From Desulfobulbaceae bacterium (GTDB lineage: Bacteria; Desulfobacterota; Desulfobulbia; Desulfobulbales; Desulfobulbaceae), in assembly GCA_024763055.1 (NCBI GenBank), contig JANTGH010000017.1, forward strand, positions 1 through 40,048: 40,048 nt of DNA, in the 5' to 3' direction. The notes under the pieces were generated by a model that saw only the letters and a list, made by a program, of their open reading frames with translations, made no database searches and was not told where the DNA came from. Every line of letters begins with the position of its first letter. Position 1 is the first letter of the stretch. Made by a program: the position numbers and the translations under genes. This document shows, one piece after another, positions 4,096-35,323 of the stretch.

Positions 4096-4221
4096 GAACG
4101 TAAAAAAATACTGAACTTGTGGAAATGTCGATAAAAGATGGCCTGGCAAATGTACCTGGACCGGACAATTCCAACAAGTCTTTTCTCTCTTCCGGCTCCC
4201 CTCTTCAATATTCCTGTTTTT

Positions 4222-4329
4222 GTAACTATTCAGGAGTGCCACATATTTACTTATTCAGGTCTTTGAAGCATACTTGTGCTGTTCGAGAAGACCGAAATGA
4301 GTGAAGATGGGGTGCTCCTGAACAGTTAC
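4222..4329. mobile_element. 108-bp MITE, copy 1, with 8-bp target duplication
   Basis: This is a 108-bp element with terminal inverted repeats: GTAACTATTCAGGAG at the left, and the complement of CTCCTGAACAGTTAC at the right. The flanks are an exact 8-bp direct repeat, CTGTTTTT at 4214-4221 and 4330-4337. IS66-family elements are known to have ends starting GTAA and to make 8-bp duplications. A second copy lies inverted at 25513-25620 with 6 mismatches. It has no transposase, so it must move in trans. It sits between the CDF gene and the feo promoter. Confidence 0.9.
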
Positions 4330-4352
4330 CTGTTTTTTCCTTGCAAAAGTTA

Positions 4353-4381
4353 TTGACAGTGATCATTGTTTGGTGTACCTA
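4353..4381 (+). promoter_or_regulatory. Predicted sigma-70 promoter of feoA
   Basis: TTGACA at 4353-4358 is a perfect -35. Seventeen bases on is a weak -10, TACCTA (4376-4381). The -10 is overlapped by the palindrome at 4369-4383, as expected for a repressed iron-uptake promoter. The MITE ends 23 bp upstream of the -35. Confidence 0.6.
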
Positions 4382-4383
4382 AA
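4369..4383. promoter_or_regulatory. Putative DtxR/Fur-type metalloregulator box 1
   Basis: TTTGGTGTACCTAAA is an imperfect palindrome over the feoA -10 region. It matches the second box at 4800-4814 in 12 of 15 positions, and both have the GG...CC half-sites of DtxR/IdeR-type operators (TTAGG...CCTAA). The regulator itself is not in the window. Confidence 0.55.
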
Positions 4384-4415
4384 CATCGCATCAGGAAACA
4401 TGAAAATAGAGACAG

Positions 4416-25407: not shown

Positions 25408-25713
25408 GCCTTCCTCTGGTATAGGTGGACTGCAATACTATACCTTAAAGACACATTCCGGATCCCCGCCCAAAAGATCGCTGGGATGACGGGACGTATA
25501 TCTTGTTTTTTCGTAACTGTCCAGGAGCACCCCATCTTCACTCATTTCGGTCTTCTTGAATAGCACAAGTATGCTTCAAAGACCTCAATAAGCAAATATG
25601 TGGCACTCCTGAACAGTTACATTCCGAAGTAAATGCAAGTTTTTTTGCATCTACCTGAAGAGTAACGTTTTTTCTTAACCTTTATCCCTGTCTTTCCTGA
25701 CTTTGGAGTTATC
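25408..25713. other. 306-bp intergenic region with hairpin, dispersed-repeat fragment and MITE
   Basis: After sppA comes a stem-loop, GGTATAG (25418-25424) with CTATACC (25438-25444), a possible weak terminator. Then 25454-25493 holds GC-rich sequence of the type GGATCCCCGCCC...GCTGGGATGACGGG, which looks like a fragment of the dispersed repeats common in proteobacteria. MITE copy 2 follows at 25513-25620. About 90 bp then lead to the solute-binding protein start; no clear promoter is seen. Confidence 0.5.
25513..25620. mobile_element. 108-bp MITE, copy 2, inverted relative to copy 1
   Basis: This is the same 108-bp element as at 4222-4329 but in the opposite orientation, with 6 mismatches (about 94% identity). 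The ends are GTAACTGTCCAGGAG and CTCCTGAACAGTTAC. The flanks, GTTTTTTC and ATTCCGAA, are not a direct repeat, so this copy is older, was inserted without a duplication, or was rearranged. It lies between sppA and the solute-binding protein gene. Confidence 0.88.
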
Positions 25714-33520: not shown

Positions 33521-34082
33521 GGTTATATTCTCCTCAAAAGGGGTATTTTTATTGAACACTATATAATTACCAACTTTTTCATCGAATGCAAGTTTTTTCC
33601 CCCGATTTGAGTTTTTTCCAGCCGATACCAATGCTGATTTTCAACAGTCCACTGAGATAGAACAATACATTCTCCTTTTTTCTGCTTTCAACAACAGCCA
33701 CCCCTTTAAGTCGGCAACCCCATTTTCGCTCGTATCCCGGCCGCTCCACCCCATTTTTAAACGAAACCATGTTATTTTCTCGATCGTTTATGAAAAATAA
33801 AGGTAACTATTCAGCGAAAACAGTGGATTAACACTCATTTTTCCCTTGACAGGGTTTTGGGTGTTTTTTTGTAAAATCGATATTGCTTAGCCTCCGGCCT
33901 TAGATATAGAGAAGATGGCCACAAAGGCCCGAATACCTGACGAGGACAAAAGGGAACACTATCCACCGAGGGCAATTTTTTAAAATCCAACAGGAAAGCA
34001 TTTAGAGACAAAAAAACCGGTTTCAAGTCGTATGGTATAGTAATTCGTAACAGAGGACGATACTTTTTGCCACGGGAACCGG
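33521..34082. other. Non-coding stretch upstream of rpmB and across the IS remnant left end
   Basis: About 280 bp upstream of rpmB shows only A/T-rich sequence, with a possible minus-strand promoter near 33550-33580 (TATATAGT). From 33803 on it becomes the left end of the IS66-type remnant. A TTGACA at 33846-33851 may be the old transposase promoter. Short frames on the minus strand (33579-33770, 33835-34267) have no coding look. Confidence 0.4.
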
Positions 34083-34350
34083 ATGACAATTAACAATATC
34101 AATATTGAAGCAACTCTTGCAAACGCTGAGAAGATAATAGCTGAAGACAGGGGACTGTCGTCTGCTTCGAAATGACTACTTGAGAGCTTAGTTCTGGTTC
34201 TTTCCCTGATGGCTAATCGTCTCAACTTATAGCAGCAATAGTAGCAAGCCACCATCGACAGACCCAAACAGGAAAAAGAATAGTAAGAAGAAAAAGGGTA
34301 GAAAGGCCGGTGATCAAAAGGGGCATGTGGGAAAGACCCTTAAAAAATCT
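33803..34350 (+). mobile_element. IS66-type insertion sequence remnant, left part
   Basis: The region starts with GTAACTATTCAGCG (33803), whose first 12 bases equal the end of MITE copy 1, and then holds the start of a broken IS66 transposase gene (34083-34350). The right side is lost: at about 34350 the sequence changes to a histidine-kinase fragment. No right terminal repeat is seen. IS66 elements are known for ends that begin GTAA. Confidence 0.7.
34083..34350 (+). pseudogene. IS66 transposase (TnpC-like) N-terminal fragment
   Basis: The frame starts at ATG 34083 (MTINNINIEATLANAEKI), meets TGA at 34173, runs on as LLESLVLVLSLMANRLN and then shifts by one base near 34230. It continues as YSSNSSKPPSTDPNRKKN, then a Lys-rich stretch and GRKAGDQKGHVGKTLKKS. 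The NSSNSSKPPS(S/T)D plus GRKxGxQxGHxGxTL pattern is diagnostic of the IS66 TnpC N-terminus. The DDE catalytic domain is absent. This is a dead fragment with at least one stop and one frameshift. Confidence 0.85.
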
Positions 34351-34352
34351 AC

Positions 34353-34656
34353 CTGTTTCACTCCTTTAAAGAACTGCTGCACAATGCCTGGAAACATGCC
34401 GAAGCAAAAGAAATCGTTGCAACAGTTAAAAAGACAGGGCACCATGTACGACTGACTTACAGTGGATGACGCCGGCAAAGGTTTTATCCCCGAAGAGATT
34501 GAGCCGGATACCGAAGAACTCAAAGGCATAGGTCTGACCAGCATCAAGCAGTGGAGTATTGCCATTAGCGGAACGCTTTCCATAGAATCCGAATCAGGCA
34601 AGGGCGCCCGAATTTCCATAGATATTCCACTTGAACAACAAGAGGATGAGACATGA
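34353..34656 (+). pseudogene. Histidine kinase 3' fragment (NarX/DegS type)
   Basis: The kinase ATPase domain survives in two frames: LFHSFKELLHNAWKHAEAKE through HHVRLTYS, then a frameshift near 34461-34465 and DDAGKGFIPEEIEPD through GIGLTSIKQW and GKGARISIDIPLEQQ. ELLHNAWKHA is the N-box, and the GIGL and SGKGARISIDIP segments are typical of HPK7 kinases. The dimerisation and sensor parts are missing, cut at the IS66 remnant. Its end overlaps the regulator start by 4 bp, as in a normal kinase-regulator pair. Confidence 0.8.
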
Positions 34657-35155
34657 TTGCCGCATTTCTCGCCGACGATCATCAGATGTTTCGACAGGGA
34701 CTCCGCACCCTGCTCGCGACCACAAAAGATATCAAAGTTGTGGGTGAGTCCAGTAACGGCCAGGAAAGCCTGCGGCTGATAGAACAGATCAAGCCTGCTG
34801 TGGCCGTTCTTGATATTGCCATGCCCGGCCTGACAGGTATTGAGGTCGCCAAACGTCTTACCCGAGTGGCGCCAAAAACAAAAATACTGATTCTGACCAT
34901 GCACGCCGACTGCTTTTACGCTGTCGAAGCCCTGAAGGCAAACGCTCTTGGCTTCATGCTCACGGAAGAGAATTTTGATATGCTTATTGATGCCATTCGT
35001 GCGGTGGCAACATCCTGACGGAACGGGAGCGGGAAATCCTGCAGCTTGTTGTCGAGGGGTTAACCAATCAGGAAATTGCCGACAACCTGTGCATATCGAC
35101 CAGCACAGTGGATACGCATCGAAAAAACATTATGGCAAAATTGATGAACTCGTAA
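34653..35155 (+). pseudogene. Broken NarL/LuxR-type response regulator
   Basis: Residues 1-121 (34653-35018) are a receiver with Asp54 (VLDIAMPG), but the conserved lysine is Thr (GFMLTEENF). The frame stops at 35018. The LuxR-type helix-turn-helix follows in another frame (35015-35155): [20 protein letters not shown] and [23 protein letters not shown]. The linker of 15-20 residues between the domains is missing. After AKL the gene runs into palindromic element C, which gives the final LMNS and stop. It is decayed, like its kinase partner. Confidence 0.82.
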
Positions 35156-35323
35156 AAAGTCGCAACTCACTCAAAGATGGCTAAGTACAAAACACAGATA
35201 TACAGGTAAGCGTAGACTCCGAGGAGTAGTGTGTCGGAGTGGGTCATGACTATACAGGTAGTATGTCTTGAGTCATCCCGACACACACAACGCAGTAGAT
35301 CGAAGTTTTTACGACGCCATCAA
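35141..35323. repeat. Long palindromic element C, at the 3' end of the broken regulator
   Basis: The outer arms are TTGATGAACTCGTAAAAA (35141-35158) and the complement of TTGATGGCGTCGTAAAAA (right arm 35306-35323), 15 of 18 matches. Inside, GTGTCGG...ATGACT and AGTCAT...CCGAC form a second stem. It begins exactly where the LuxR helix-turn-helix would continue. A short open stretch on the minus strand ends 2 bp beyond its right edge. Confidence 0.7.

Follow-up and report, generated by a model that had tools for sequence, protein, structure and literature searches.

Bacterial MITEs are commonly regarded as neutral remnants confined to a single species or genus. The REP/BIME sequences, i.e., palindromes of 20–40 bp, depend on a Y1 HUH enzyme for their movement and are not flanked by target duplications. 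Regulatory roles have been proposed for the hairpins of ERIC and NEMIS (PMC2229807, in part), and QMITE2 is not confined to Coxiella burnetii (PMC5896051, in part). Among the IS66 elements, ISDge4, a member of the ISBst12 group, has the ends GTGACTACTCAGCA/GTAACTGCTCAGCA, an 8-bp repeat and a single ORF (PMC12898284, in part).

The stretch of DNA analysed here (hereinafter the window; 40,048 nucleotides) contains a small palindromic element with the following features:

4214..4221, no strand: left 8-bp target duplication CTGTTTTT, from reading of the sequence
4222..4329, plus strand: short-form mobile hairpin, 108 bp; plus is the strand of G.T wobble pairing, and the hairpin covariance model R1 gives 109.2 bits on plus and 61.1 bits on minus
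4222..4233, plus strand: left end GTAACTATTCAG, positioned where the 152-bp form has its inner end; position 7 is A
4265..4290, plus strand: apical region GAAGCATACTTGTGCTGTTCGAGAAG, well conserved across the hairpin family
4318..4329, minus strand: right end GTAACTGTTCAG, from the 12-bp end search
4330..4337, no strand: right 8-bp target duplication CTGTTTTT, from reading of the sequence

An earlier note made from these letters alone had described a 108-bp element at 4222–4329 with 15-bp terminal inverted repeats and an exact 8-bp target duplication. The coordinates are correct, the duplication CTGTTTTT is present on both sides (4214–4221 and 4330–4337), and the terminal repeats agree in 14 of the first 15 positions (GTAACTATTCAGGAG / GTAACTGTTCAGGAG), with the element starting with GTAACTATTCAGGAG and finishing with CTCCTGAACAGTTAC. 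The whole element is a near-palindrome, with 42-nt arms that are 79% complementary, and its single-strand DNA fold has a z-score of −8.5, with none of the 200 shuffled sequences being equally stable. Sites that match GTAACTATTCAG with at most one mismatch are found four times in the window, compared to the expectation of 0.15. One of these sites, at 25609, marks the end of another copy, on which the earlier note is silent:

25505..25512, no strand: one side of the 8-bp target duplication that flanks the second copy (GAAAAAAC when read on the strand of that copy), exact
25513..25666, minus strand: second copy, full-length, 154 bp, consisting of the hairpin (25513–25620, 108 bp) and the left arm with the outer end (25621–25666)
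25667..25674, no strand: the other 8-bp duplication of the second copy, an exact match to 25505..25512

Comparison with further copies indicates that the element is mobile, as had been proposed, but that 108 bp is the length of an exceptional short version of an element that measures about 152 bp and has three end repeats. Typically, the unit (151–154 bp) consists of an outer IS66 end, a left arm of about 45 bp (range 42–47, mostly 44 or 45) and the 108-bp hairpin with an end on each side, so that each full unit carries an outer left, an inner left and a right end, of which the outer one starts with GTAACTATTCAG. The genome from which the window comes (350 contigs) contains approximately ten near or moderate relatives of the 108-bp sequence, most of them preceded by a further ~45 bp. 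Copies from this genome, from its relatives and from contigs of named genomes were gathered as the best model matches and exact loop-pattern matches, so that the sample favours typical copies; after removal of 59 partial, 22 edge-cut and 49 duplicate entries from the 313 matches, 183 distinct copies remain. The earlier note had suggested that the flanks of other copies be inspected for 8-bp duplications, and at the outer boundary a duplication matching in at least 7 of 8 positions is indeed present in 150 of the 183 copies (exact, 8/8, in 121 of these). At the inner boundary, such a duplication is found in only four copies (the window copy, L340, L248 and L151; exact in three), and 29 copies have it at neither boundary. 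When the right flank is shifted as a chance control, the same threshold is reached in 4 of 915 comparisons for the outer boundary and in 0 of 915 for the inner one. Given that the inner boundary is used in 4 and the outer boundary in 150 of the 183 copies, the window copy represents a rare short form. The duplicated targets are A+T-rich at positions 2–7 (77–84% A+T). The element thus has the features tested that define MITEs: it is short (108 bp here, 151–154 bp in most full copies), has terminal inverted repeats and no transposase gene, is dispersed in multiple copies (at least 14 R1 matches among the 15 candidates scored in its own genome), and is flanked at many copies by a target duplication of fixed length, 8 bp.

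The three ends differ in one position. Among the 97 long copies whose ends all belong to the GTAACTATTCAG type, A occupies position 7 in 92 outer ends and G in 90 inner ends, and the right ends are divided between A (58) and G (39). The left end has A at this position in all four short copies, versus 6 of the 97 inner ends of long copies (Fisher p 5e-5, not corrected for relatedness). We read this contrast as indicating that the inner end is normally weak as a left end but can be used if position 7 is A. Three copies that belong to neither the outer nor the inner class blur the rule, namely L281 (no outer arm, G, duplication 6/8), L177 (A, 5/8) and L215 (A, no duplication). The same genome also contains a second 151-bp element with similar ends and an unrelated hairpin, in two copies, one (L029, C307:3001-3151) with the exact 8-bp duplication TGATTTTT and the other (L028, C166:6986-7136) without a duplication; different bodies may thus be mobilised through one kind of end.

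The hairpin is widespread within the order of sulfur-cycling bacteria to which this bacterium belongs. A search with the covariance model R1 (E≤1e-3) identifies it in 160 of 257 genomes of the order, representing 54 of 69 genera, and in a phylum sample of 395 genomes (E≤1e-5), eight of the nine matched genomes, including the genome studied here, are within the order and one is outside. Exact matches to the apical loop are found in at least 117 stretches of named genomes. Among the 80 loop matches listed, most come from Desulfobulbaceae, Desulfurivibrionaceae, Desulfocapsa and Desulfobia or from records named only Deltaproteobacteria, Proteobacteria or Pseudomonadota; a Flavobacteriaceae MAG and a Calditrichaceae MAG also carry the match, which we suspect to be a binning error because the names of these bins resemble those of the carriers. 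In viral contigs, no exact loop-pattern match is detected. Assemblies of carriers often break in or beside the element (e.g., in L121, L132 and L164 the loop match is less than 60 bp from the contig start), so that draft genomes probably understate the number of copies.

Analysis of an alignment of 38 non-redundant hairpins (A4; 500 shuffles) reveals extensive conservation of pairing. Paired cells account for 92.7% of the total, versus 82.2% in shuffled alignments and at most 43.8% in slid versions, and two-sided changes are present in 30 of the 44 stem pairs; none of the 500 shuffles reaches either the observed paired fraction or the count of two-sided changes. The compensatory changes thus exceed both the shuffled and the slid controls, with arm-to-arm copying as a possible cause. 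The imperfect pairs are asymmetric between the strands. On the strand that reads the outer arm first, there are 220 G.T versus 34 A.C among 1664 cells (38 of 38 sequences), and a strand-neutral comparison, in which each core is paired with its own reverse complement (56 of 150 outer-form cores that pass a <88% identity filter), gives 379 G.T, 79 A.C and 446 other mismatches (56 of 56 sequences). The predicted RNA fold energy is −55.9 kcal/mol on the plus strand versus −37.9 on the minus strand (41 of 41). The left arm lacks a consistent structure: a second hairpin formed by this arm is seen in the genome studied here and in L057 and L061, but the mean z-scores over 37 arms (−0.9 on plus, −0.6 on minus) do not support it as a general feature. 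No promoter-like site is apparent in the two window copies. A search of Rfam at the gathering score identifies no family for five loci; at E≤1, the sole matches are to microRNA-precursor models, with scores well under the gathering thresholds of these models.

The main rival to selection on one strand is palindrome correction combined with base composition: the covariation and the wobble bias would both be mutational, with template switching repairing the palindrome and a G+T-rich stem supplying the G.T pairs, so that RNA selection would be unneeded. Long palindromes are prone to correction by template switching, and arm-to-arm copying could yield apparently compensatory changes without selection. 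An insert of 17 bp is, as expected under such copying, present in both arms in mirror orientation in 6 of 152 hairpins (by eye, at facing places in L397, L398 and L415), but it is confined to the 3′ arm in ten further hairpins and to the 5′ arm in six. Composition likewise explains part of the asymmetry: shuffling within columns gives an expectation of 264 G.T and 82 A.C, that is, a ratio of 3.2, which places part of the G.T bias in the G+T-rich composition of the stem. The observed ratio, however, is 6.5, twice the composition expectation, with A.C at 0.41 of the expected number and G.T below its own expectation as well (0.83). A strand-wide mutation bias is not supported, given that the hairpin has a G+T fraction of 0.559, compared to 0.446 for the left arm next to it. 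Recent changes were examined in 132 of the 154 outer- and inner-form copies, aligned at a length of 104–112; the singletons come from the 10 clusters with at least three members. Singletons at paired sites include 19 G.T, 13 A.C, 12 Watson-Crick and 19 other combinations, with G>A being the commonest recent change, whereas the cluster consensus sequences contain 350 G.T versus 40 A.C (odds ratio relative to singletons 6.0, p 2.6e-5, for cells that are not independent). The near-balance of the singletons against the skew of the consensus suggests that G.T is tolerated and A.C is removed. We read this pattern as pointing to one-strand selection, which would most simply act on RNA, and consider the purely mutational explanation rather unlikely.

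The exact 17-mer GGTAAGCGTAGACTCCG (35205–35221 in the window) is itself a dispersed sequence, found in 84 of 257 genomes of the order and in 31 of 69 genera, with up to 74 copies per genome, compared to 0 copies of the reversed control in every genome listed. Together with close variants, it is present inside 24 of the 152 hairpins, in either arm or in both, and it also occurs in other sequence contexts, sometimes in tandem, with A as the preceding base in 86 of 91 contexts. Comparison by eye of sites containing the 17-mer with uninterrupted siblings reveals no visible target duplication. The 17-mer is reminiscent of the very small dispersed repeats known from cyanobacteria.

Selection on one strand could also act on single-stranded DNA, e.g., on a hairpin within a copy-out transposition intermediate, rather than on RNA. 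The hairpin folds well as DNA, and the lack of orientation bias to genes among 103 copies points to a function inside the element. This explanation nevertheless appears unlikely given that the tolerance of many G.T wobbles is more characteristic of RNA and that DDE transposases which leave 8-bp duplications normally act on double-stranded ends.

The same 103 copies bear on the possibility that the hairpin is a host-selected regulatory device between genes, such as a terminator, a site for RNase III or RNase E, or an mRNA stabiliser, comparable to the roles described for ERIC and NEMIS (PMC2229807, in part). Indeed, the copies are intergenic, with only two inside an ORF of at least 100 aa (by crude mechanical ORF calls). 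An orientation-dependent effect on neighbouring genes was considered and rejected, with no bias detectable among the 103 copies: 29 and 29 are in the two tandem arrangements, 21 are between convergent and 16 between divergent genes, four are far from genes and two have incomplete contexts. The window copy is located between a cation-efflux-like gene on the minus strand and a feoA-like gene on the plus strand (names from ORF reading), directly before a block that precedes the feoA-like gene and is shared almost unchanged with G004 and G005, a placement that favours the regulatory explanation; the site of insertion, however, is not common to G004 and G005, and neither of the two window copies has a terminator-like T run. 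Combined with the absence of an orientation preference, this makes host regulation quite unlikely. The element-serving role, in which the hairpin acts for the element itself, is favoured over a role in the expression of neighbours because there is no preferred orientation to the neighbouring genes.

The conserved block (4338–4386) contains TTGACA at 4353–4358 and the inverted repeat TTTGGTGTACCTAAA, whereas the rest of the intergenic region has diverged from G004 and G005; it may be a regulated promoter next to which the element inserted. With R1 at E≤1, no copy is detected in the matching regions of G001, G002, G004, G005 and G006 (L360–L364), of which only those of G004 and G005 (L361 and L362) align across both flanks. 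In these two genomes, the intergenic region is too diverged for a single CTGTTTTT to be readable at an empty site, and the alignment score with G004 is not higher for the emptied window (222.5) than for the filled one (241.0). The absence of an R1 copy from the G004 and G005 regions fits an insertion of the window copy after the split from these species.

As to the enzyme responsible for mobility, the window contains the remains of a candidate autonomous element:

33803..33814, plus strand: left end GTAACTATTCAG, belonging to an autonomous element of the mobilising type that has decayed, from the 12-bp end search
34083..34350, plus strand: N-terminal remnant of a DUF6444-bearing IS66-type transposase, with broken frames and without the C-terminal part

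The ATG of the remnant (34083) lies 280 bp downstream of the end at 33803, as described in the earlier note. The remnant matches the DUF6444 type with 24.5 bits, below the 27-bit cut-off, and is, over 88 residues, 59% identical to the translation of an open frame of 477 aa from the same genus. By eye, the decayed element (33803–34650) stops inside the apparent C-terminal part of a sensor histidine kinase, and this stretch is followed by a response-regulator frame (34653–35018). In the draft genome that contains the window, no intact transposase of the single-ORF DUF6444 type is detected, the relic being the only trace.

Intact elements of this type are found in relatives. The single-ORF IS66 elements have the ends GTAACTATTCAGC and 8-bp duplications (e.g., 8 of 9 copies, 1713–1714 bp, in G060), and 12 of the 20 loci that encode proteins related to the remnant show GTAACT..TCAGC-type ends together with an exact 8-bp duplication (8 of 9 in G060, 2 of the 3 read among 8 matched in G038, and one each in G032 and G094). 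The remaining eight loci lack an exact duplication; L096 and L106 have the ends, whereas in L102, L103 and L108–L111 no convincing end pair is seen. All four transposases scanned contain DDE_Tnp_IS66 and DUF6444 with scores over the Pfam cut-offs. The link to IS66 proposed in the earlier note is thereby upheld, given that its 12-bp end is present in intact IS66 elements with exact 8-bp duplications, and the outcomes that it named as contrary, i.e., ends or duplications of another family, or absence of the 12-bp match from intact IS66, did not appear. The assignment is narrowed, however, to the single-ORF, DUF6444-bearing type (the ISBst12 group); the only three-ORF IS66 match of the genome studied here (C325) was rejected as a source on account of its GTAAGCG ends.

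The notion that the element is derived from IS66 is borne out for the ends only; in the interior, no IS66 sequence is identified. An nhmmer search of the IS66 loci L068–L112 with the hairpin profile yields as the sole match a copy inserted in L109/L084, and a blastn search of 22 IS66 loci with one full copy gives nothing at E≤1. The copy in L109 is read as a chance insertion at the gene start because the related IS66 genes L108 and L111 lack the element, and not as the 5′ part of the type-B IS66 gene. L108 (G005:C356) and L111 (G177:C12), which have GTAACCGTTCACCGGG ends, contain an extra upstream gene that, by eye, resembles DUF4338 (DruA-like). Furthermore, G060, with nine IS66 copies of the mobilising type, has no R1-detectable member of the hairpin family. 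Since derivation from IS66 is seen for the ends only, ‘IS66-mobilised’ is the safer and preferred name, and the element would be mobilised in trans by a single-ORF DUF6444 IS66 transposase.

The family has two further end types. The second, GTAACCGTTCACC, is found in 35 copies and matches both ends of an IS66-like element in G005, for which no exact duplication is detected; the third, GTAACTATCCAGCTC, is found in G098 in three copies with an outer arm of 24–25 bp and duplications matching in 8, 7 and 6 of 8 positions, and agrees with the ends of the G094 IS66 element over 14–16 bp. Thus, the ends appear to vary with the types of IS66, whereas the layout is constant. That the mover is a transposase of another family and the 12-bp likeness to IS66 is a convergence is highly improbable, for although the stretch shared with the IS66 elements read is only ~12–16 bp, each of the three end variants has its own IS66-like match (GTAACTATTCAG in G060, GTAACCGTTCACC in G005 and GTAACTATCCAGCTC in G094).

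Taken together, these observations are best compatible with an IS66-mobilised, non-autonomous element that is the short form of a three-end family of ~152 bp and whose hairpin is kept on one strand, most likely as RNA; we consider this explanation to be likely correct. Under this scenario, single-ORF DUF6444 IS66 transposases would act on ends of ~12 bp (GTAACTATTCAG) and insert at A+T-rich sites, with duplication of 8 bp. In the full family unit, the outer left and right ends would normally be used, whereas in the window copy the left end would be the one at the inner position, which has A at position 7 in place of the more common G, so that the hairpin alone moved. The pairing of the hairpin body on one strand would have been maintained throughout an order of bacteria, with RNA as the most likely form, and the transcript or single strand of the element may serve the element itself. 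A more specific possibility, which we put forward tentatively and with some doubt, is that the family is a mobile RNA gene, in which a one-strand hairpin transcript is needed for the persistence or mobility of the element, and the ends are changed to suit the available IS66-type transposase while the RNA body and the three-end layout are kept.

In the literature covered (titles and abstract openings, with few subscription journals), no description of the hairpin family is found, and the link to IS66 and the ISBst12 group, the three-end layout with two mobile lengths, and the order-wide conservation of pairing with a one-strand wobble bias appear to be new. Given one hairpin body in 160 of 257 genomes, with ends that vary along with IS66-type partners, RNA selection on MITE hairpins becomes testable, and so does the feature that would switch an element between two mobile lengths, namely position 7 of the inner end.

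With respect to the known systems, REP/BIME with a RAYT was considered and rejected, because the family consists of 108- and 152-bp units with 8-bp duplications. The ISBst12 group, exemplified by ISDge4, shares the GTAACT..TCAGC-type ends and the 8-bp duplication and encodes its transposase in a single ORF (PMC12898284, in part); in contrast, the hairpin element has no transposase, no recognised IS66 sequence in its body, and a third, internal end. QMITE1 and QMITE2 of Coxiella burnetii are MITEs reported as sources of small RNAs, and QMITE2 resembles the hairpin family also in having large and small versions and direct repeats of 7–11 nt, but differs in the variable length of these repeats and in an internal GTAG REP (PMC5896051, in part). 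The Correia/NEMIS elements of Neisseria are likewise small, come in two sizes (107 and 155 bp) and form RNA stem-loops but, compared by description, have TA termini and 24-bp terminal repeats (PMC2229807, in part). The ERIC/IRU repeats of enterobacteria are similar to the hairpin family in their length of ~127 bp, the highly base-paired transcript and the spread through a whole group of bacteria; ERIC, however, has TA termini and 7-bp terminal repeats, whereas the family described here has three ends, two mobile lengths and 8-bp duplications (PMC2229807, in part, for ERIC).
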